Source: a virus | Strand: one strand, 5' to 3' | Length of the DNA stretch: 28,899 nucleotides | IMG/VR virus record: IMGVR_UViG_3300009085_000075 | Location: 1 to 28,899 of that record | Shown: positions 11,936 through 22,571 of the stretch, one piece after another | How positions within the stretch are numbered: the first letter of the stretch is position 1 | Layout of the letters: every line of letters starts with the position of its first letter | Notes under the pieces: generated by a model | What the model was told of the DNA's origin: nothing | Database searches by the model: none | Seen by the model: only the letters and a program-made list of their open reading frames with translations | Made by a program: the position numbers and the translations under genes

Positions 11936-12107
11936 TGCTGTAAAATATATTCTTGCCTTCTTTCTTCTCTTGTTCCTCATAGGGGTGATAGTAAGAGTGG
12001 TATCAAAGGTGGTATTCAAATCCTTTTTTGAAGAAAGGGCGAAGTTTGTTATGACAATTTTTCAGGAGAAATCAAAAAACGAAAAGGAGGAAAAAAATGA
12101 AATTTGA
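11919..12107 (+). CDS. Small single-span membrane protein
   Basis: A 62-residue protein with one membrane helix (YILAFFLLLFLIGVIVRVV, about residues 10-28) and a charged C-terminal tail (KSKNEKEEKNEI). The start has GAAAGGAGGGG upstream and overlaps the UvsY-like gene; its end overlaps the ssDNA-binding protein gene by 11 bases. No family is recognised. It sits inside the recombination operon, so it could tether recombination proteins to the membrane, but nothing in the sequence proves this. Confidence 0.72.
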   Translation: METVIDAVKYILAFFLLLFLIGVIVRVVSKVVFKSFFEERAKFVMTIFQEKSKNEKEEKNEI

Positions 12108-13137
12108 CCGAAACAAAGCACGTGAGGACCTTTTGGCGCAGACGCAACTTTCATTCCAGACCAAGGATTTTGCAGGGTTGGGTGCTTCTTATTTGAAGCC
12201 CCTGCCAAGACCTTCATGGTCGTGTAAAGAAGGTAAACATTTGATTGATATCATTCCTTGGATTGCTGGTGATAACTTTCCTAACCCAAAGGTCAAACCG
12301 GGGGCGTTCGTTTACCATTTGGATGTTTTCATTCATCGTAACATTGGGCCAACTGACTCCCAATTCCTCTGCCTTGCCTCTAATTTTCAGAAGAGGTGCC
12401 CCATTTGCGAGAAGCTGAAAGAGCTTCGTTTGGCGAGCGCGGAGAAGGAATTGATCGACGCTGTCCGACCTAAACGCAGAACGGTGTACAACATTGTATG
12501 CTTGGATACAAGCATGGAAGAAGAGAAGGGCGTCCAGGTTTGGGAACTTGCCCATTTCTTCATGGAACAGAAACTCGCCTCCCTTGCTGAGAGGCCAAGA
12601 ACTGGTGGATTCGTTGGGTTTGCGGACCCGGATACGGGAAAGAGCATCTCTTTTGAGCGCAAAGGTTCCGGCTTTGAAAATACTCAGTTCCTTGGGCACC
12701 AATTTGTGGATCGTGAGGGGTATATCATTCCGGATGCGCTTTTAGAACAAGCTGTTCCGCTCGAGGAATTCCTTGTTATCCCCACTTATGATGAGCTCTA
12801 CGAATCGTTTTACAATAAGAAACCGGCCCCTGATGAAGACGGGGGGGGCACACAACCAAGGCGCCTTATGCGGGGGCAGAAAACACCGGCCGAAGACAGC
12901 AACAACCCGTGTAAATTCGGTGGCGTCTTTGGTAAGTCAATTGATAACCTGGTACAATGTAATGAATGTGATTTGTATGATGAATGTGCAATTGCAAGCA
13001 AGGGTGAACCAGTACCTGTAGCACAGGAACAAACGTCCGGTACAAGACGGAGAGCTCCACAAGAAACGCAGGAAGCACCCGCCGCGCCAGCCCCCGCTGA
13101 GTCTACCACAAGGGTGAGAAGGAGGACACTGGCCTAA
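12097..13137 (+). CDS. Single-stranded DNA-binding protein, T4 gp32-like
   Basis: The 346-residue protein fits gp32-type ssDNA-binding proteins, which coat unwound DNA and recruit UvsX and UvsY. The core includes the WSCKEGKHLIDIIPW block and a zinc knuckle H-x11-C-x8-C-x2-C ending in CPIC, close to the spacing in T4 gp32. After the OB-fold region comes a second cysteine set near the C-terminus (CKFGG…CNECDLYDEC: C-x15-C-x2-C-x5-C), which T4 gp32 lacks. The tail is rich in Ala, Pro, Gln and Glu and ends with RVRRRTLA, so it is not the strongly acidic tail seen in T4. The start has AAGGAGG. The stop overlaps the recombinase start (TAATG). Confidence 0.8.
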   Translation: MKFDRNKAREDLLAQTQLSFQTKDFAGLGASYLKPLPRPSWSCKEGKHLIDIIPWIAGDNFPNPKVKPGAFVYHLDVFIHRNIGPTDSQFLCLASNFQKRCPICEKLKELRLASAEKELIDAVRPKRRTVYNIVCLDTSMEEEKGVQVWELAHFFMEQKLASLAERPRTGGFVGFADPDTGKSISFERKGSGFENTQFLGHQFVDREGYIIPDALLEQAVPLEEFLVIPTYDELYESFYNKKPAPDEDGGGTQPRRLMRGQKTPAEDSNNPCKFGGVFGKSIDNLVQCNECDLYDECAIASKGEPVPVAQEQTSGTRRRAPQETQEAPAAPAPAESTTRVRRRTLA

Positions 13138-14189
13138 TGATTAAAAAACGATCTGTTCCGGATAAAGTTCAACAGGTCGAAGAAACAATGGCTCCCAAAC
13201 CACGGAAGGAAGCAAGGGGGCAAGATCGCCTTTTGCTTCCTTCCGGGAGCACCCTGTTGGATTTGGCGTTGTCGGACACTCCTGATGGGGGGTATATTCC
13301 GGGGAGTATGGTTAACATTGTAGGGGATAGCTCTGCCGGTAAAACATTTCTTCTTTGGACAACATTTGCGGAGGCCGCTCGTAATTTTTTGTTCAAAGAT
13401 TACCGGTTCCTGTATGATGAACCAGAAACAGCTTTTTATATGAATATTAAAAAGCTGTTTAACTTAGAAGATAAAAAGATTGAATTATTGAAATCCCCAA
13501 CTATTCAATCTTGGTTAAAAAACGTCATGGTAACGATAAAAGATAACATTCCTTTCATCTATGGGTTGGATTCATTTGACTCGGTCGGATCGGAAGAGGA
13601 GAGAACAAGGTTTGATGATTTAGTAAAAAAGGGTGAGGCTTCTGGCAGTTATAAGACAGAAAAAGCCAGAATGTCCGGTGAATTATTCCGGGTGATTGTT
13701 GACCACCTAAGTAAAACCAAGTCCATCCTTTTTGTTATATCACAGACGAGAGACAACATTGGGGCGACATTTGGGGAGAAGAAGATTCGTTCTGGTGGTA
13801 ATGCCCTGCGTTTTTATTCAACGCATGAGGTGTGGTTGCATATAAAGGGGCACATTAAAAGAAGGGAGCGGGATGTTGGGGTTGATATTATTGCCCGTGT
13901 AAAAAAGAATAAACTTACTGGTAAATTGAGGACCGTTGAATTCCCCATTTATTTTGATTATGGGGTGGATGATGTTCTGTCCTGCATCAACTGGTTAGTT
14001 AATGAGAAGTTTTGGGGCAGGAAGATGGGGGTTATTAATACGTGTGGCGATTTTATTGATGCAAAGGAGGAGGAACTCATTCAATATATCGAATCTAATA
14101 ACCTTGAGCCAAAGCTAAAATCCATAGTAACTGAAAGTTGGAATGAAATAGAAAGGAGCATCGCAACGAATCGGAAACCAAAATTCTGA
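13137..14189 (+). CDS. RecA/UvsX-like recombinase
   Basis: A 350-residue RecA-fold ATPase that would pair and exchange strands. Walker A is GDSSAGKT (63-70), preceded by the PSGSTLLDLAL and GGYIPGSMVNIVG blocks. The Walker B-type strand is FIYGLDSFDSVG. The L2-adjacent segment is ISQTRDNIGATFG, followed by GGNALRFYS, which matches 'GG.al.f..s.r'. The C-terminal part is shorter and different from bacterial RecA, as in UvsX. Its position directly after the gp32-like and UvsY-like genes supports a UvsX role. The ATG overlaps the previous stop. Codons are rich in GGG: at least eleven runs of four or more G are seen. Confidence 0.85.
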   Translation: MIKKRSVPDKVQQVEETMAPKPRKEARGQDRLLLPSGSTLLDLALSDTPDGGYIPGSMVNIVGDSSAGKTFLLWTTFAEAARNFLFKDYRFLYDEPETAFYMNIKKLFNLEDKKIELLKSPTIQSWLKNVMVTIKDNIPFIYGLDSFDSVGSEEERTRFDDLVKKGEASGSYKTEKARMSGELFRVIVDHLSKTKSILFVISQTRDNIGATFGEKKIRSGGNALRFYSTHEVWLHIKGHIKRRERDVGVDIIARVKKNKLTGKLRTVEFPIYFDYGVDDVLSCINWLVNEKFWGRKMGVINTCGDFIDAKEEELIQYIESNNLEPKLKSIVTESWNEIERSIATNRKPKF

Positions 14190-14200
14190 AAGGACGGAAA

Positions 14201-15055
14201 ATGATTCTTGTTCTGGATTGTAATGGGATCTGTCACATGGCTCGGCACGCCATGAAAAATTTCACTTACGAAGAGAGACAAGTCGGGGTCATTTTCGGGT
14301 TCATGAGGCAATTGTTGTCTCTGTCAAGAAAATTTGATTCCCCGTCTTTTGTTTTCGCATGGGATTCACAATTTTCCTTTCGTAAAAAAGAGTACCCATT
14401 GTATAAAGAAAACCGGAAAAGTAATAAAGACCCGAACGAAAGAGAGGAAGATAAAAACGCATTCCGCCAATTTGATACGCTCCGCGATGAAATCCTTCCA
14501 TACATAGGGTTTAAAAATAATTTCCAACAGAAGGGCTACGAGGCAGATGATCTAATTGCCTCCGTAGTTCAATTGAACGTTGGGGATTTTGTGATCGTAT
14601 CAATGGATACGGACCTCCTTCAGTTATTAAACACCCGGACGCAGATTTATAACATCAGAAAAAAGGAGTTGTATGGGGTACGAGATTTTACGAAAGAATA
14701 TAACACGCCTGTGCATAATTGGCCTCTCGTCAAAGCTATCGCTGGGTGCCCAACAGATAACGTCGAAGGGGTGCCCGGAGTCGGAATTATAACAGCAGTA
14801 AAATATATCAACGGAGAATTGAGCCATAGCTCATTCTCTTATAGAAACATTGTTACCAACTGGGACAGTATTGTTGAACGGAACAAGCCCCTTGTAACTT
14901 TGCCGTATAATGGACTTCGTGTTAATTTAGCCAATGGTAAAGACCAACTGTCCTTATCAAACTTCATTGACGTTTGTACAGATTATGGGTTTGCTTCCTT
15001 CCTTGAACATAAGGCTCTCCAAGATTGGAGGGAACATTTATTCAATATCAAATAA
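14201..15055 (+). CDS. 5'-3' exonuclease / flap nuclease (RNase H-like, PolA N-terminal domain family)
   Basis: A 284-residue FEN-type nuclease that removes RNA primers and 5' flaps during lagging-strand synthesis. Metal-binding acids appear in order: D6 (LVLDCNG), the YEADDLIAS block (E114, D116, D117), VSMDTDLLQLL (D136, D138) and GCPTDNVEGVPGVG (D186), which also contains the helix-hairpin-helix. The basic 'YK.nR' motif (YKENRKS, 69-75) is present. It supplies the domain missing from the polymerase at 7843. The start has GAAAGGA upstream, 11 bases after the recombinase stop. Confidence 0.9.
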   Translation: MILVLDCNGICHMARHAMKNFTYEERQVGVIFGFMRQLLSLSRKFDSPSFVFAWDSQFSFRKKEYPLYKENRKSNKDPNEREEDKNAFRQFDTLRDEILPYIGFKNNFQQKGYEADDLIASVVQLNVGDFVIVSMDTDLLQLLNTRTQIYNIRKKELYGVRDFTKEYNTPVHNWPLVKAIAGCPTDNVEGVPGVGIITAVKYINGELSHSSFSYRNIVTNWDSIVERNKPLVTLPYNGLRVNLANGKDQLSLSNFIDVCTDYGFASFLEHKALQDWREHLFNIK

Positions 15056-15067
15056 AGGGGGTCTTTA

Positions 15068-15352
15068 ATGAGCAAAGGGACAACGGTTGTTCATTGCAAA
15101 AAAGAATCGTTTGATGTTTACATTGGACGCCCATCAATATGGGGGAACCCATTCATCGTTGGTAAACATGGGACACGGGAGGAAGTCATTGAAAAGTTCC
15201 GTTTTTACTTACTCAATGACCCTCTATTGAAGTCACAACTGATGGATTTGGATGGTAAAACTCTTGGCTGTTGGTGTAAACCGCAGCCTTGTCATGGTGA
15301 TGTTATTGTGGAAGTTATAAACCAAATCAAAAAGGGTGAGTTCACACTATGA
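15068..15352 (+). CDS. DUF4326 family protein
   Basis: The 94-residue protein matches the pattern of DUF4326: DVYIGRPSIWGNPF, then REEVIEKFRFYLL, and LGCWCKPQPCHGDVI near the C-terminus. The Cys-Trp-Cys and Cys-His residues are the family hallmark. The biochemical role is not established. The family is common in phages and beside nucleotide-handling genes. The start has AAAGGGGG upstream. The stop overlaps the next gene's start. Confidence 0.85.
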   Translation: MSKGTTVVHCKKESFDVYIGRPSIWGNPFIVGKHGTREEVIEKFRFYLLNDPLLKSQLMDLDGKTLGCWCKPQPCHGDVIVEVINQIKKGEFTL

Positions 15353-16452
15353 TAAATTCAATATCAATATCAAATTTCCAATCTCATAAAAAAACGTGCA
15401 TCATATTTGATCAAGGGGTTAATGTTATTACCGGGGTTTCCGATTCCGGTAAATCTTCTATTTTAAGAGCCCTTTTGTGGGTGATTCAAAATAAGCCGTC
15501 TGGAGACGCAATAAAGAATTGGGATTCCGGGGAAGAGCCCGTCACTGTTAATATCAAGACCGGGGAATTTAGTATTACTAAGACTCGAGAAAATGGTAAA
15601 GTCATCTACTACCTATCTAACAGCGACGATAATGAAGGGCGTAAGAAATTTGAGGCTGTTCGAAGTGATGTCCCAGAGGAGATTGAAAAAGTATTAGCTA
15701 TATCCGATTATAATTTACAGACTCAGCACGACCCGTATTTCTTATTGAAAGACTCACCGGGGGAGGTGGCTCGAAAACTTAACGAATTGATAGGTTTGGA
15801 TATTATTGATAAAATATTTAAGAATCTCAATTCTAAGATACTATCTACGAGAAGGTTCATTGATGAACAAAAAGAATCGTTGGAGAGGTTAGAGAAGGAA
15901 ATTGACTCGTTAGCCTACTTGGATTCCTTGTCTGAACAGGTGGATTTATTATTACTTCTTGCGCAAAAGCATGAAAAAATAACGACATCGGTTACCGCCC
16001 TGCAAAATTGTGTAAAAAGCTATACAGAAATCGAAAGAGAAGAAGCGAAGCTTGAACGCATCTTAAAATTACAAACCCCCTGCGAGCACTTGTTAAAACG
16101 GATTGAAGAAGGGAAAAAATTGTGTGGGAAATTGGACTCGCTTAACTCCATCATTAATCAACTTGAAAAAGTAAATTGTAGCATGGCAGAAGAGTCGGAA
16201 TGGTTGAAAGTGGAACAGCCAGAGAAGGAACTGAAGAAACTAATTGATTCATCTACTTCTATTAAAACGACCATAAAAATGTTGTCGTCGATCAAAGAGC
16301 AGTGGGAATCTTTTGATGAGAAAAGCCGTGTTCTGTCCACCAAATTAGTATCCTTTATCGCATCGTATAAGAACATATTGAAAAAGAATAAAATCTGTCC
16401 CCTCTGTCGTACTAAAATTAATGACGAGGTAATAAGGAGAATAACTTTATGA
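15349..16452 (+). CDS. Rad50/SbcC-like ATPase, N-terminal half ending just after the zinc hook
   Basis: A 367-residue protein with the N-terminal ATPase lobe of Rad50/SbcC/T4 gp46: ISISNFQSHKKT followed by Walker A GVSDSGKSS (29-37), and the Q-loop-like YNLQTQHDPYF. From about residue 150 to 345 it is coiled coil. It ends with the zinc-hook motif CPLC (C350-C353) and only fourteen more residues. In normal Rad50 the chain turns at the hook, returns through a second coil, and carries the signature and Walker B; all of that is absent here. The missing ATPase lobe is encoded separately at 17769, with Mre11 in between. Start and stop overlap both neighbours, so the end of the gene is natural rather than an obvious frameshift. 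Confidence 0.88.
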   Translation: MINSISISNFQSHKKTCIIFDQGVNVITGVSDSGKSSILRALLWVIQNKPSGDAIKNWDSGEEPVTVNIKTGEFSITKTRENGKVIYYLSNSDDNEGRKKFEAVRSDVPEEIEKVLAISDYNLQTQHDPYFLLKDSPGEVARKLNELIGLDIIDKIFKNLNSKILSTRRFIDEQKESLERLEKEIDSLAYLDSLSEQVDLLLLLAQKHEKITTSVTALQNCVKSYTEIEREEAKLERILKLQTPCEHLLKRIEEGKKLCGKLDSLNSIINQLEKVNCSMAEESEWLKVEQPEKELKKLIDSSTSIKTTIKMLSSIKEQWESFDEKSRVLSTKLVSFIASYKNILKKNKICPLCRTKINDEVIRRITL

Positions 16453-17363
16453 AGCTCCTAATTCTTGGTGATTTGCACCTCACAGATAAACAACCTGAAA
16501 ATAGAATTGATGATTACAAAGCGACTTGTATTCATAAATTTTGGTTCATACTTAATACAGCAAAAGATTATGGCGTAGATGCAATTCTTCAACCTGGAGA
16601 TTTTACAGATTCGCCTAATTTATCGTATGAAATGTTTAGTGAGATCCTTGAATGCTTCGAAGGACTCAACATTCCAATCATTACAACTTTTGGCCAACAT
16701 GACATGAAATTCCGTAGGAAAGAAAATACAGTTTTGCACGCATTACACTCTGCGCTTGGAGATGATAGATTTGAAATTCTCTGCCGAGAATATATTGACG
16801 GAATTGAACCGGAAGAAGACAATATTGCTATTCAAGGTGCTGCATACAATGATCCTATTCCTGAAGTTCCAAAGAATGACAGATTCAATGTTCTGCTTAT
16901 CCACAAAATGATTGTTAATGAAAAAGATCAGAAGTGGAAAGAGCAGTATGACTTTGCAAATATTTTCCTCATGAAAAACAAGTTTGATTTAATTGTGAGT
17001 GGGGACAATCATTTGCCTTTCATTGCTTCAACAAGAGACAAACAAAGGCATTTGATCAACTGTGGATCGATGATGCGAAGCACCATCGCACAGATAGAAC
17101 ACGAGCCCTTCATCGTTCTGTTTGATGTGGACGAAAGGTCGTATGAAAAGATATTCATTCCAATTCAACCAGCAGAACAAGTATTCAAGCTGGAACAAAT
17201 AAAAGTGGAGAAAGAAAGAGATGATAAAATAAAAGCATTCGTTGCTGGTTTATCGGAACAGAAAGAGATGGGAATGTCTTTCGAGGATAATTTAGTTAGA
17301 TATATCAGAGATAATAAAGTGAATAAAAAAGTGGTCACCATTATAGAGGAGGCAAAACAATGA
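16449..17363 (+). CDS. Mre11/SbcD-like nuclease (T4 gp47-like)
   Basis: A 304-residue metallophosphoesterase that works with Rad50 to process DNA ends. Motifs: GDLHL (D8, H10), QPGDFTD (D51), FGQHD (H84, D85; usually GNHD, so Asn is replaced by Gln), then LLIHKM and SGDNHLPF with late metal-binding residues and NCGSMMRS. The C-terminal part lacks a long capping domain. The start overlaps the Rad50 N-half stop (ATGA), and the stop overlaps the next small gene. Base use differs from neighbours: only one run of four or more G is seen in 915 bases, against eleven in the recombinase gene. Confidence 0.88.
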   Translation: MKLLILGDLHLTDKQPENRIDDYKATCIHKFWFILNTAKDYGVDAILQPGDFTDSPNLSYEMFSEILECFEGLNIPIITTFGQHDMKFRRKENTVLHALHSALGDDRFEILCREYIDGIEPEEDNIAIQGAAYNDPIPEVPKNDRFNVLLIHKMIVNEKDQKWKEQYDFANIFLMKNKFDLIVSGDNHLPFIASTRDKQRHLINCGSMMRSTIAQIEHEPFIVLFDVDERSYEKIFIPIQPAEQVFKLEQIKVEKERDDKIKAFVAGLSEQKEMGMSFEDNLVRYIRDNKVNKKVVTIIEEAKQ

Positions 17364-17536
17364 CAACGTATAAAATCCGTTTGGACACCAGAACATGGGG
17401 CCGGAAGAGCCGTCGTTTACAAGACTTCTTCTATTATTTAAGAAAGCTCTTGAAAACCGCACGTGCGACGGGAATGTCGATGACCGATTACCACGAGAAA
17501 GAAGGGTATGCCTACATAACATTAGACAGGAGATAG
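17360..17536 (+). CDS. Small basic hypothetical protein, 58 aa
   Basis: A 58-residue frame starting at ATG 17360, overlapping the Mre11 stop (ATGA), with GAGGAGG upstream and a TAG stop at 17534-17536. It begins MTTYKIRLDTRTWGRKSRR, has a helix rich in aromatic and basic residues (DFFYYLRKLLKTAR), and ends YAYITLDRR. Strongly basic. It fills the only gap between Mre11 and the coiled-coil gene, so it is very likely a real gene. Function unknown. Confidence 0.72.
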   Translation: MTTYKIRLDTRTWGRKSRRLQDFFYYLRKLLKTARATGMSMTDYHEKEGYAYITLDRR

Positions 17537-17539
17537 ATC

Positions 17540-17779
17540 ATGGAAGACATCTTGAAGGACCTTGAAGAATTGGACAAACAAATTGGGGAAGCAAAACGAA
17601 CACTCGCTGTTTTTGAAGGTAATAAACAGTCTTTATTAAAAAGGTTGAAAGAGGAATTCAATTTGCATACTATATCCGAAGTTACCAAAGAGCTTGCAAA
17701 ATTGGAAAAGGAGAACATTGCTCTGACCAATACTATTCAAGAAAAGTACAATGATTTGAGGGCTTCTTATGAATGGTGA
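17540..17779 (+). CDS. Small coiled-coil protein, possible Rad50 coil fragment
   Basis: A 79-residue protein that is almost entirely heptad-like helix (ILKDLEELDKQIGEAKRTL… and VTKELAKLEKENIALTNTI), with a break near residue 42. The start has AGGAGA upstream. Its last 11 bases overlap the start of the Rad50 C-half in another frame. Placed directly before the C-terminal Rad50 lobe, it may supply part of the descending coil missing from both Rad50 halves. That is inference from position and composition. Confidence 0.75.
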   Translation: MEDILKDLEELDKQIGEAKRTLAVFEGNKQSLLKRLKEEFNLHTISEVTKELAKLEKENIALTNTIQEKYNDLRASYEW

Positions 17780-18395
17780 GTGGAAAGAAGAATTGCCCCG
17801 AATGCGACGGCATATTGACCAAGAGATCGGGCGTCGTGCTGCGCTTATGAAAGAGCATCTCAAAGTGGGGGGCGCTTTAGAGAAAAGCACGGAGTATTTT
17901 GAAAACGCAAATATGGCCCGCTCCGTTGTGCAAAGTGTCGCGGAGGCCACTCAGAAACACATTGAATTTCATATAAGTTCAATTGTTACAATGGCTTTAC
18001 AATCCGTATTCCCAGACCCCTATACATTTGAACTACGATTTCTTCAGCGAAGGAATAAAACGGAGGCGGATTTAATTTTCATAAAAAATGGTAATGAAAC
18101 GGACGACCTCTTAAACGCAGGCGGGGGCGGCCCCGCGGACATTGCTTCTTTTGCACTTAGAATAGCCCTTTGGAGTATTAAAAAAACGCAACCAGTTCAA
18201 ATATTGGATGAACCGATGCGTTTTGTCAGTAGGGACTTGCAAACCAAAGTTTCCATGCTGATGAAAGAACTAAGTGATAAACTTGGGGTGCAATTTATAG
18301 TGGTTAGCCATATACCCGAATTATGCGGTGAGGCACATAATATCATTAAAATAGAAAACTCGGGCGGGGAATCAAAAATCCTATTGGAAAGGTAA
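17769..18395 (+). CDS. Rad50/SbcC-like ATPase, C-terminal half
   Basis: A 208-residue protein with the second ATPase lobe of Rad50/SMC proteins. After about 75 helical residues comes a beta segment (YTFELRFLQRRNKTEADLIF). The signature region is NAGGGGPADIASFALRIALW (signature at about 116-121; a divergent form of the SGG motif). Walker B is VQILDEPM (143-150, catalytic D147 E148), a D-loop-like region follows, and the H-loop is VVSHIPEL (H181). Walker A and the zinc hook are absent; both are on the protein at 15349. The two must assemble to make one ATPase head. Translation probably couples to the preceding coiled-coil gene through the overlap. Confidence 0.85.
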   Translation: MNGEWKEELPRMRRHIDQEIGRRAALMKEHLKVGGALEKSTEYFENANMARSVVQSVAEATQKHIEFHISSIVTMALQSVFPDPYTFELRFLQRRNKTEADLIFIKNGNETDDLLNAGGGGPADIASFALRIALWSIKKTQPVQILDEPMRFVSRDLQTKVSMLMKELSDKLGVQFIVVSHIPELCGEAHNIIKIENSGGESKILLER

Positions 18396-19393: not shown

Positions 19394-19740
19394 AATTTGA
19401 GATGGTGGACATTGGTCTTATCTACCCTTTTGACGGAACTCATTTTGCTGAAAAGGAGCTTTGGGATCAAGATGATTATGACTTTCACCAGGAAGGAATT
19501 GTTTACATCAAGGGGGTTCTGAAGACAGAGCCTGTTCTTCCGATCGCTGTCCGTCTTTCTGAAAATCTGCCGTTCGGTAAATACGAACGACTTGATGGGT
19601 TCAAAAGGTTTATGGCAATGAAGGAGTCGGGGTATAGAAAGATCCCTTGCTTCATTTATGATGAGTCAGATGGGGATATTGTCACCCCCGGAATGCAGCA
19701 TGGAATGTCACTTTATTACAGATTAAAGGAGGCAAAATGA
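19390..19740 (+). CDS. ParB-like (ParB/sulfiredoxin fold) protein
   Basis: A 116-residue protein. The KYERLDGFKRFMAMKESGY-IPCF segment fits the 'lvdGhhRl.Aa..lG...ipv' core of ParB/Srx-type domains, which bind nucleotides. No DNA-binding helix-turn-helix is attached, so it is not a partition protein. In phages such stand-alone domains occur beside methyltransferases and sugar genes. It overlaps both neighbours by 4 bases (ATGA), so it is clearly part of the operon. Family call moderate, function unknown. Confidence 0.62.
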   Translation: MKFEMVDIGLIYPFDGTHFAEKELWDQDDYDFHQEGIVYIKGVLKTEPVLPIAVRLSENLPFGKYERLDGFKRFMAMKESGYRKIPCFIYDESDGDIVTPGMQHGMSLYYRLKEAK

Positions 19741-20438
19741 GATTACAGGAGATCATCAATTTCTTCAAACCAATTCAAGGAGCAATCAGCGTAGCCGAAG
19801 CTGTTGCCATGTATTATACGATATTAAACAACTGCAAATTGAAATTCCAATATGCGGCCGATCTTGGATCTAACTTTGGTAAATCTTCGTGCATCGCTTC
19901 CGCTGCCCTTTCTGATGCAGGAATAGAAGGTGAGTTTCATCTTGTCGATCCCATCTACAATCAGAAGAACCCAGACTTATCAGAAACGATAGGCACACAT
20001 GGTCATAATCCCTATTATGACTGGCCTGATTTTTGTGAGAGAACGCTCTCCCATGTTTCAAAGTTCTCTCGTATGAAGCCTATTTTGAACCCTGTCCCTT
20101 CAGTTAGGTTCCTTGAAACCTGCCCAATGCTCGGGTATGTATTCATTGATTCAGATGATCATAACGACATTACAATTCAGAAAGAACTTTCCATTGTAGA
20201 TAAAAAGCTACTTGTTGGGGGGATATTGGGGTTCCATGATTTTGGCAATCAATGTGTGGCCCCAAAGGAAGCCGCATACAAATTGATTGAGTCTGGATCT
20301 TATGAATTATTACCGATTGATTGGGATTACGTTTTGTCCATCGCTGATTCTTTGGGGGGTGAAGAAGGAAATCAATCATGGCATATGACCCACTTGAAGA
20401 ACCCTATTTATGTTGGTTTTCTGAGGAGAATAAAATAA
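19737..20438 (+). CDS. Class I SAM-dependent methyltransferase-like protein
   Basis: A 233-residue protein. ADLGSNFGKSSCIA (about 41-54) fits SAM-binding motif I, FHLVDP the acidic strand-2 motif, and YVFIDSDDHND the strand-4 motif with acidic residues, as in O-methyltransferases of the Methyltransf_24 type that act on sugars or small molecules. A late GGILGFHDFG segment also fits that group. It lacks the (D/N/S)PPY motif of DNA amino-methylases. It sits between a ParB-like gene and a UDP-sugar dehydrogenase, which suggests a glycan or nucleotide-sugar substrate; that is inference. Confidence 0.7.
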   Translation: MRLQEIINFFKPIQGAISVAEAVAMYYTILNNCKLKFQYAADLGSNFGKSSCIASAALSDAGIEGEFHLVDPIYNQKNPDLSETIGTHGHNPYYDWPDFCERTLSHVSKFSRMKPILNPVPSVRFLETCPMLGYVFIDSDDHNDITIQKELSIVDKKLLVGGILGFHDFGNQCVAPKEAAYKLIESGSYELLPIDWDYVLSIADSLGGEEGNQSWHMTHLKNPIYVGFLRRIK

Positions 20439-20467
20439 TTTATTACTTAAATACCGAAGGGGGGCTT

Positions 20468-21346
20468 ATGAAACCGATAGTTGGAGTTTGGGGGTGTGGG
20501 GTAGTTGGATCGAATACGGCGAATCTGTTTGAACGACTTGCTGATGCCCGAGTGAACGTCCTCAAGTATGATAAGTACAAGGAAGGCACTTGGGATTCTC
20601 CGGATCATCTGATAGATAACAGCGATTTTATTTTTGTCTGTCTCCCGACCCCAATGAAGTCAACAGGTGAAATTGATCTTTCATACATAGATTGTTGTCT
20701 CTGTGAAATAGCAGACAGACTTCCGAAAAGAAATCATAAAATCATCATCATTCGTAGCACTTCTGTTTCTGGCAGTTCAGACAAGTTTGCAGATAAATAC
20801 TCCTCTCTCAACATCACTTTTGTGCCAGAGTTCCTAACAGAAAAAGATCCGTGGCAGGACACAGTTCATGCAACAAGGGTTGTGATTGGGGCCACTGATC
20901 CTGTGACTTTCTTTACGATAAAATCATTATTCTATCTTGCTTATGGTGATCAAGTTGATTATATCCACATGACCAGATCTGAAGCAGAAATGTATAAATA
21001 TGTGTGCAATACACTTCTTGCTATGAGTGTGATGGCTGCGAATGAGATCTTCTTTATTTGTACTTTTCTTGGAATCAACTATCAGAAAATCCAGGAGAAC
21101 CTTCGTTACGATCATAGAATCAGTAAGTTCACTCAGGTTCCCGGCAGCGACGGAGACTTCGGCATAGGAGGCAAATGCTTCCCGAAAGACATCGCCGCTC
21201 TTGCCCATCTTGCACAAGAGAACGGGTACGAACCTAAGTTATTGAATGAAGCAATCAGCATGAATCTTCGCATACGAAAGAAGAAAGACTGGTTAGAGAT
21301 TCCTGGTGCTGTTTCTGACTGCACTTTTACAAAAAAGGAGTTTTAA
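20468..21346 (+). CDS. UDP-glucose/GDP-mannose dehydrogenase-like protein, short form
   Basis: A 292-residue member of the nucleotide-sugar 6-dehydrogenase family, which oxidises UDP-glucose or similar to the uronic acid using NAD. The N-terminal Rossmann motif is GVWGCGVVGSN (6-16). VCLPTPM, the STSVSGSSDKFA stretch and VPEFLTE fit the family. The catalytic cysteine block is GIGGKCFPKD (232-241, C237). Full-length members run to about 400 residues with a C-terminal UDP-binding domain; this protein ends about 50 residues after the catalytic block, so that domain is missing. The ATG at 20468 has AGGGGGG upstream; an in-frame ATG at 20378 would overlap the methyltransferase by 61 bases. Confidence 0.82.
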   Translation: MKPIVGVWGCGVVGSNTANLFERLADARVNVLKYDKYKEGTWDSPDHLIDNSDFIFVCLPTPMKSTGEIDLSYIDCCLCEIADRLPKRNHKIIIIRSTSVSGSSDKFADKYSSLNITFVPEFLTEKDPWQDTVHATRVVIGATDPVTFFTIKSLFYLAYGDQVDYIHMTRSEAEMYKYVCNTLLAMSVMAANEIFFICTFLGINYQKIQENLRYDHRISKFTQVPGSDGDFGIGGKCFPKDIAALAHLAQENGYEPKLLNEAISMNLRIRKKKDWLEIPGAVSDCTFTKKEF

Positions 21347-21347
21347 T

Positions 21348-22571
21348 ATGGCGGAGATAACTTTAATTCACCCAGGTAGCCCCTTTTTGATTGATCAAAA
21401 AACATTCCCCCCTTTGGGTATAATGTATTTATCATCAATGGTGAAGAAATTTCATTTTTCCGTCGAATGCAGGGACGTTGGTCTTGATCAGACAATTAAT
21501 AATATTGAATCAAATATTGTTGGCATTTCTTTTACTACAGCACAAAAAGACGAAGCTTTTGAAATCGCACGAAACTTAAAAGGTAAAACATTAATCGCGG
21601 GCGGAGCACACCCATCTCATGACCCGACCAGTTGTATAAAAAAAGGGTTCCAGTTTGTCATTAAAGGGGAGGCTGATTACCAATTACCAATTCTTGACAC
21701 GCAATTATTGAGAAAACGGGTGACCAAATTCCCTGATAATATTATCAAAAGCGTGGACCCAGTTGACATTAACATCATCCCTTTCCCAGACAGGGATGTA
21801 CTTCCAATAAAAGATTATAAATACCTAATAAATGGGGAACCAGCAACCACCATCATGACCTCACGCAGTTGCCCATTTTCATGTTCTTTTTGTTCAAAAA
21901 TAAGTTCTTCATTCAGAATGCAATCAGCATATAGAACCGTCAATGAAATACGAGATATAAATCACAAATATGGGTTCAAAGCATTCATGATATTTGATGA
22001 CGTTTTCATTGCCGATATTGACCGTCTACGTGAAATTGTATGGCTATTAAAAGGAAAGGATTTTATTTTCCGTTGTTTCGGCCGGGCGACAATGCTCACA
22101 GAGGAAGTTTGTGATCTCTTACAACAAATGAATGTTGTTGAGGTGGGTGTTGGGGTAGAAAGCGGGTCTGAAGAGGTCTTGAAAAAGAACATGAAAAGAA
22201 CCTCTGTCGAACAAAACACGAGAGCGATAAATAATCTGAGAAACTATGGAATACGCTCAAAAGCATTTATGATTATAGGGCTGCCCGGTGAGTCTCATAA
22301 AACGATTGATGAATCAAGAAAGTGGATTGAAGCAACCAAACCAGATGACATTGATTTCTCTATCCTCCAAATATTGCCTGGGTCCGATATCTACAAAAAT
22401 CCACGAAAGTATGATTTATATTCTGAGAGAACACACACTCCTTTATGGTATAAGGGAACCCCCGGTCAATACGTGAGTTCGTCCCACACAAAAGAATTAT
22501 CAGCAGATGAACTTATCGCTATACGTGATCAATTTGAGAATCAATATAAAAATAAAAGCTTGCTACGCTAA
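21348..22571 (+). CDS. Radical SAM enzyme with an N-terminal B12-binding-like domain
   Basis: A 407-residue protein. Residues 1-120 have the alpha/beta pattern of B12-binding domains found ahead of radical SAM domains (FPPLGIMYLSSMVKK, then IVGISFTT and TLIAGGAHPS), but the DxHxxG cobalamin motif is not seen. The radical SAM core has the 4Fe-4S motif CPFSCSFC (C175, C179, C182). GVESGSEEVLKKNMKR and AFMIIGLPGE follow, as in this superfamily. Members methylate or rearrange lipids, sugars and peptides. It is the last gene of the P3 unit and probably acts with the sugar dehydrogenase and methyltransferase before it. The start has AAGGAG; the in-frame ATG at 21306 lies inside the previous gene. 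Confidence 0.85.
   Translation: MAEITLIHPGSPFLIDQKTFPPLGIMYLSSMVKKFHFSVECRDVGLDQTINNIESNIVGISFTTAQKDEAFEIARNLKGKTLIAGGAHPSHDPTSCIKKGFQFVIKGEADYQLPILDTQLLRKRVTKFPDNIIKSVDPVDINIIPFPDRDVLPIKDYKYLINGEPATTIMTSRSCPFSCSFCSKISSSFRMQSAYRTVNEIRDINHKYGFKAFMIFDDVFIADIDRLREIVWLLKGKDFIFRCFGRATMLTEEVCDLLQQMNVVEVGVGVESGSEEVLKKNMKRTSVEQNTRAINNLRNYGIRSKAFMIIGLPGESHKTIDESRKWIEATKPDDIDFSILQILPGSDIYKNPRKYDLYSERTHTPLWYKGTPGQYVSSSHTKELSADELIAIRDQFENQYKNKSLLR

Follow-up and report, generated by a model that had tools for sequence, protein, structure and literature searches.

The 28.9 kb virus record IMGVR_UViG_3300009085_000075 (28,899 nucleotides [nt], analyzed whole and called here the window) contains a cluster in which Rad50 is encoded in two pieces, named N and C, on either side of a gene for Mre11 and a gene for a small helical protein, S. 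The accepted plan of Rad50, as of the SMC proteins, is a single chain that runs up to a hook and back again. By their sequences, N, C, and Mre11 are homologues of the two Rad50 ends and of Mre11. This bears out an earlier note on this DNA, which had described a Rad50 encoded as separate pieces around Mre11: the profiles of both pieces match Rad50 best, and more than 100 relatives are split alike. We consider it probable that the products form a split, multi-subunit Rad50–Mre11 complex with a head reconstituted from two pieces, S positioned close to that head, and a modular arm that N forms and that runs one way.

Identity of the Rad50 parts and of Mre11

The N protein of the window matched AAA_23 (1e-11) and its C protein matched phrog_15167 (1e-22); NCBIfam Rad50 models were top-ranked for both. 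Against solved structures, the best PDB match for a profile of 62 N proteins was archaeal Rad50 3aux (E 1.4e-15), and for a profile of 63 C proteins it was Rad50 3qkr_B (E 2.3e-15). Rad50 outranked SMC, RecF, and transporters by sequence with both profiles, and SMC, RecF, and RecN were ruled out as closer kin because Rad50 came first for both pieces. The lobe of the N model built with AlphaFold2 matched Rad50 1f2u_C (Z 13.4, root mean square deviation 2.9 over 129), with Rad50 and SMC heads tied within Z 1 in this structure comparison. The C lobe was assigned by sequence.

The Walker A and Q-loop residues G29, G34, K35, and Q126 and both hook cysteines are invariant in 63 N proteins, as are both residues of the Walker B DE pair in 63 C proteins; the C protein of the window has no Walker A. 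The earlier note had placed Walker A, the CPLC hook, the signature, Walker B, and the H-loop correctly, with correct coordinates throughout. All 63 N proteins matched phrog_16465 (exonuclease) and all 63 C proteins phrog_15167 (ATPase). A match to phrog_1499 (427 amino acids [aa], function not assigned) was also obtained with 61 of the 63 N proteins, and this family may contain further N-parts.

In about 11 of 125 distinct loci, close relatives of the window among them, Asp stands in place of the H-loop His. The change occurs together with D-loop Ser to His in six loci (L002, L004, L007, L009, L011, and L024) and with D-loop Ser to Arg in four others (L159, L161, L166, and L167); the C protein of the window keeps both the D-loop Ser and the H-loop His. 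This is a paired change in the ATPase site, possibly of two origins.

The Mre11 of the window matched Metallophos (2.4e-9), and the best PDB match of the family profile was Pyrococcus furiosus Mre11 1ii7 (2.7e-15). Residues D8, H10, D51, H84, H152, and H188 are kept in the family. Both metal-site motifs could be read in 111 cases: GNHD is changed to GQHD and GHxH to GDxH in 94 of them, including the window, 10 are intermediates with GNHD and GDxH, and five have the ordinary GNHD and GHxH pair. In the alignment to 1ii7, the changed positions correspond to the Asn and the first His of the second metal site, whose residue roles are established for P. furiosus Mre11. The distribution of the motifs suggests that the site changed in two ordered steps.

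The features of the cluster are given in Table 1. N and Mre11 overlap by 4 nt, and S and C by 11 nt. The earlier note had listed a 58-residue protein among those encoded between the two Rad50 pieces. Relatives of this 58-aa open reading frame (ORF) were absent from all 168 loci, and we do not regard it as part of the system. Upstream, at positions 12097–15352 of the window, are genes for a gp32-like single-stranded DNA-binding protein (SSB), a RecA-like protein, and a 5′-3′ exonuclease (a T4-like recombination set), followed by a DUF4326 protein. Downstream, at 19737–22571, there are methyltransferase-like, UDP-glucose dehydrogenase-like, and B12-binding radical SAM genes.

Table 1. Genes and motifs of the split Rad50 cluster, in coordinates of the window
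Feature	Description	Position	Strand
N	Rad50 N-part: lobe I, long stalk, and C-terminal zinc hook; 367 aa	15349..16452	+
Mre11	Mre11/SbcD-like nuclease, 304 aa; GQHD/GDNH instead of GNHD/GHxH	16449..17363	+
58-aa ORF	Listed for exclusion only	17360..17536	+
S	Conserved antiparallel helical hairpin, 79 aa; candidate third subunit	17540..17779	+
C	Rad50 C-part: short coil and ABC lobe II; 208 aa	17769..18395	+
Walker A	GVSDSGKS, N residues 29–36	15433..15456	+
Zinc hook	CPLC, N residues 350–353; stop 14 residues later	16396..16407	+
ABC signature region	AGGGGPAD, C residues 117–124; most relatives SGGG-x-x-D	18117..18140	+
Walker B	Acidic pair DE, C residues 147–148	18207..18212	+
H-loop	His 181 of C	18309..18311	+

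Distribution of the split among phages

Successive profile searches of IMG/VR revealed one relative of C at first and then 9, 141, and 172, with at most 80 stretches fetched per search; a search of genome contigs gave two loci. We gathered 168 loci, of which 125 are distinct by C sequence. All four genes lie inside the fetched stretch in 114 of these, and the other 11 have at least one gene beyond the stretch or unrecognized. The order N-Mre11-S-C on one strand was found in 113 of the 114 distinct complete loci, so the arrangement that the earlier note had proposed to look for in related phage genomes is the rule. The exception is Bacillus phage vB_BboS-125, with the order N-S-C-Mre11; its Mre11 gene is unannotated and lies in an annotation gap at NC_048735.1 22423–23403 (L005:6872–7852).

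No fusion of N with S or of S with C was present in the 168 loci, and both Rad50 lobes were never encoded in one polypeptide in the 125 distinct loci. The hook CxxC lies at most 34 residues from the C-terminus in 112 of 114 N proteins (median 8).

The full set of four genes is found in cultured phages too, namely of Bacillus, Microcystis, and Microbacterium. In Microcystis phage Mvi-JY20, genes for N, Mre11, a 94-aa coil protein, and C follow one another, every one annotated as a hypothetical protein; since the coil protein matched the S profile weakly (E 0.018), its position in the gene row is the main argument for regarding it as S. An uncultured 485-kb phage has N, Mre11, a coil protein, and C. 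In Microbacterium phage Magritte the genes are scattered (N at 93.8 kb, Mre11 at 119.7 kb, S at 127.2 kb, and C at 0.3 kb) and yet all present, which shows that S and C are kept even without operon linkage. The split Rad50 is a trait of a large, mostly uncultivated group of phages.

Arm, hairpin protein, and proposed complex

The AlphaFold2 model of N (62 sequences; pLDDT 89, pTM 0.43) consists of lobe I, a helix at residues 151–187, and a single helix at 191–347 that ends at the hook and has a pLDDT mostly of 83–97. N stalks range from 79 to 303 residues in steps of about 47, with clusters near 79 (one case), 141, 189, 239, and 297. Among lags of 20–109, the self-similarity of N peaks at lag 47, followed by lags 24 and 94, and the units vary considerably in sequence. 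C has about 115 residues before the signature, a constant length, and its return coil comprises about 45 helix residues ahead of a conserved head-proximal helix. The returning coil is thus short relative to the N stalk, as the earlier note had said, although its estimate of about 75 residues in the C-half was too high.

The combined length of S and C did not follow the length of the N stalk (slope −0.006, where 1 is expected for a return strand). Because it is constant while the stalk varies, S and C do not provide a matching return strand, and the two coil strands of matched length that characterize Rad50/SbcC were not found. The same result supports the asymmetric shape that the earlier note had suggested for the ATPase, as regards the arm, and leaves its suggestion that S extends the returning coil without support. 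Judged from these lengths and repeats, the arm is a modular rod altered in length by whole units, and the cluster encodes no partner strand for it.

The hydrophobic period of the N stalk is 3.35–3.40 in 85 of 96 proteins, below that of ordinary coiled coils; it is about 3.5 in the C coil, 3.55 in S, 3.45 in Escherichia coli SbcC, and 3.5–3.6 in T4 gp46. Phase tracking along N showed near-heptad stretches interrupted at about residues 188, 241, and 287 by jumps, two of which fall at Pro-containing joints, and a conserved Pro lies about 58–60 residues ahead of the hook. Together with the prominence of lag 24 beside 47, the jumps and the Pro would fit stalk repeats that fold as self-contained helical hairpins or as a bundle, making a partner for the arm unnecessary. 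We regard such a stalk as unlikely, since AlphaFold2 shows residues 191–347 as one helix, and since a zigzag fold with odd versus even numbers of units would place the hook at opposite ends.

For an extended arm without an encoded partner strand, the simplest answer is parallel pairing with another N arm, which agrees with the reported role of the zinc hook as a constitutive dimerization module (PMC6969161). Within the dimer, the arm of each N probably pairs with that of the other half. A fuller picture, which we put forward tentatively and with less than even confidence, is that each subunit contributes a single ascending helix of 47-residue units with a period near 3.36 (47/14) and no antiparallel return strand, that the arms of the dimer run parallel and are clamped by the C-terminal hook, that the hairpin subunit closes the coil at the split head, and that arm length evolves by whole units.

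S was found wherever all four genes were readable, with an almost constant length near 80. Its AlphaFold2 model (62 sequences, pLDDT 92) is an antiparallel hairpin of helices 2–40 and 45–76, and in the family one Gly of helix 1 is almost invariant and internal indels fall mostly at a shared F-G-x-x-S/T turn. The model shows what the earlier note had called a coiled-coil protein of 79 residues as a two-helix hairpin and not a straight strand. The note's proposal of a third subunit is supported by the presence of S in every fully readable locus and by its retention in Magritte, where it is unlinked. Searches of Pfam and PHROGs gave scattered coiled-coil matches to S and no consistent PHROG, and a Foldseek comparison of the S model with the PDB gave nothing meaningful, which still leaves room for a known fold. 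T4 has two small proteins, gp46.1 and gp46.2, between gp47 and gp46; homology of S to either was rejected, as the S profile did not match them and their sequences are not coiled-coil-like.

S is probably a structural third subunit. Helix 151–187 of N is similar in length to the C helix, which has about 45 residues, and to both helices of S, which suggests that the N helix, the C coil, and the S helices bundle at the head. The quantized stalk would also allow S to bind at many places on the arm: one S hairpin (39 + 32) would form a three-helix bundle with every 47-residue unit of N (about 45 in helix), and the number of S copies would follow the number of units. The nearness of the S helix length to the unit length and the constancy of S agree with such an arrangement, but S is linked to C and not to N, and the N units differ a good deal in sequence; we consider it rather doubtful.

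S might instead be an operon passenger unrelated to the complex, for example a regulator, as it has no known domain and only the scattered matches described above. This is improbable given that S is present in all complete loci, is kept in Magritte far from C and N, and has a near-constant length. It also co-varies with C: the correlations of protein distances were 0.78 for N-C, 0.82 for Mre11-C, and 0.55 for S-C, against less than 0.09 in the shuffled null.

Another alternative is that S and the N-terminal coil of C are the missing descending strand, that is, an ordinary antiparallel arm cut in three. The gene order places S between the hook and the C coil, S has a very weak phrog_77 match (E 0.53) directly after that of N, and the shortest N stalks (79–146) are near the length of S plus the C coil (about 125). 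A cut arm is nevertheless very improbable: the length of S and C does not track stalks of 79–303 residues, S is a confident hairpin with a conserved turn that takes most of its indels, and the N stalk has a hydrophobic period distinct from those of S and C.

In the split complex that we favor, N (lobe I, stalk, and hook) and C (short coil and lobe II) would come together in trans as one ABC head, and a pair of such heads would close over ATP in the manner of ordinary Rad50. The idea of a split head is sound, since Rad50 heads of two chains (A and B) have been crystallized (1f2t, 1us8, 1ii8, and 3qkr). Mre11 at the head would degrade DNA ends. S, often translationally coupled to C, would be the third subunit, most simply placed against the head-proximal coil, and the arm would come from N alone, as a long helix of repeats of about 47 residues up to the zinc hook with no antiparallel partner encoded.

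The T4 proteins gp46/gp47 act in recombination and replication. According to the T4 record, they are required for recombination and host-DNA degradation. The phage Mre11–Rad50 would have the role of gp46/gp47 in T4 recombination, replication, and host-DNA breakdown, and the neighboring SSB, RecA-like, and 5′-3′ exonuclease genes fit it. A defense system was also considered, because PADLOC returned Lamassu LmuB and mad3 matches; these reflect shared similarity of the ABC head, and the linkage to Mre11 and the recombination neighborhood argue against defense.

Several points weigh against the split complex as proposed. The single helix of N is no proof of a one-way arm, because AlphaFold2 tends to render a coil strand given without its partner as a long helix. 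The gaps between S and C are large in several loci (up to 1165 nt), and translational coupling of the two is therefore not universal. The binding place of S is a guess from helix lengths, the altered Mre11 ligands could mean that nuclease activity is changed or lost, and the N protein of Magritte (gp155, L168:3839–4891) has no CxxC hook.

The earlier note had described the pieces as intact and not the result of simple decay. In related locus pairs, all four genes, and thus also S, had a dN far lower than dS (for example, dN 0.09 vs. dS 1.24), and dN/dS of S was about 0.06–0.18 in closer pairs. A full-length Rad50 elsewhere in relatives, which the note had named as evidence to the contrary, was looked for and not found: in 19 records of 58–172 kb there was exactly one AAA_23 match over the cut-off per record, which was N, although these records may be incomplete and a second Rad50 in the missing parts is conceivable in some. 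One C each was present in 15 records. An origin of the split in sequencing error, which the note had also raised, in decay, or in the remnant of an inserted Mre11 gene can practically be dismissed, because the same split recurs in more than 100 independent loci and in cultured phages, the genes are retained even if scattered, the reading frames overlap cleanly, and selection is purifying.

Significance and comparison with known systems

A Rad50 split in this way and accompanied by a third protein was not found described in the open full-text literature, which omits most subscription journals, and it is possible that the arm architecture is new. A natural three-piece Rad50 tests whether the lobes need a covalent link, whether a return strand is needed for ATP signaling from head to hook, and what determines how long the arm is. 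Phage genes currently annotated as hypothetical, generic ATPase, or exonuclease could also be named from it, and its short separate subunits are handy for biochemistry. A textbook machine can apparently be assembled quite differently.

PHROGs hold N and C as separate generic families (phrog_16465 and phrog_15167), unmarked as two parts of one Rad50. The Mre11–Rad50 fusion of Bacillus phage 0305phi8-36 (A7KV18) was the second-best viral structure match of N. According to a 2011 paper on Mimivirus (PMC3175470), one of the P-loop NTPase segments of SbcC could not be seen in this fusion. The 0305phi8-36 protein may be a related case, an N-part without its C-part; unlike in the split Rad50, its Mre11 is fused to the Rad50 part. 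Two Acinetobacter phage proteins of 935 and 938 aa (L173:2050–4857 and L174:2041–4857), one annotated as SbcC-like and the other as hypothetical, also resemble Mre11–Rad50 fusions, with a phosphoesterase-like start followed by Walker A and a hook.

The phage system shares with Rad50/SbcC (archaeal Rad50, E. coli SbcC, and T4 gp46) lobes I and II, Walker A, the Q-loop, the signature region, Walker B, and mostly the H-loop, as well as a zinc hook that ends the ascending coil and an Mre11 partner in the same operon. It differs in having two chains and a third small protein instead of one chain, a hook at a C-terminus, and a stalk in quantized units of 47 residues with a period of 3.35–3.4 and no matching descending strand. 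The phosphoesterase core of Mre11/SbcD (P. furiosus Mre11 and T4 gp47) is kept, whereas the full set of canonical metal ligands is not (GNHD Asn to Gln, and first GHxH His to Asp in most). As in the crystal heads 1f2t, 1f2u, and 3qkr, lobe I and lobe II on separate chains would form the head. Those two-chain heads were obtained for crystallization from a coil cut close to the head, and they lack the hook and the third protein that the phage system has.

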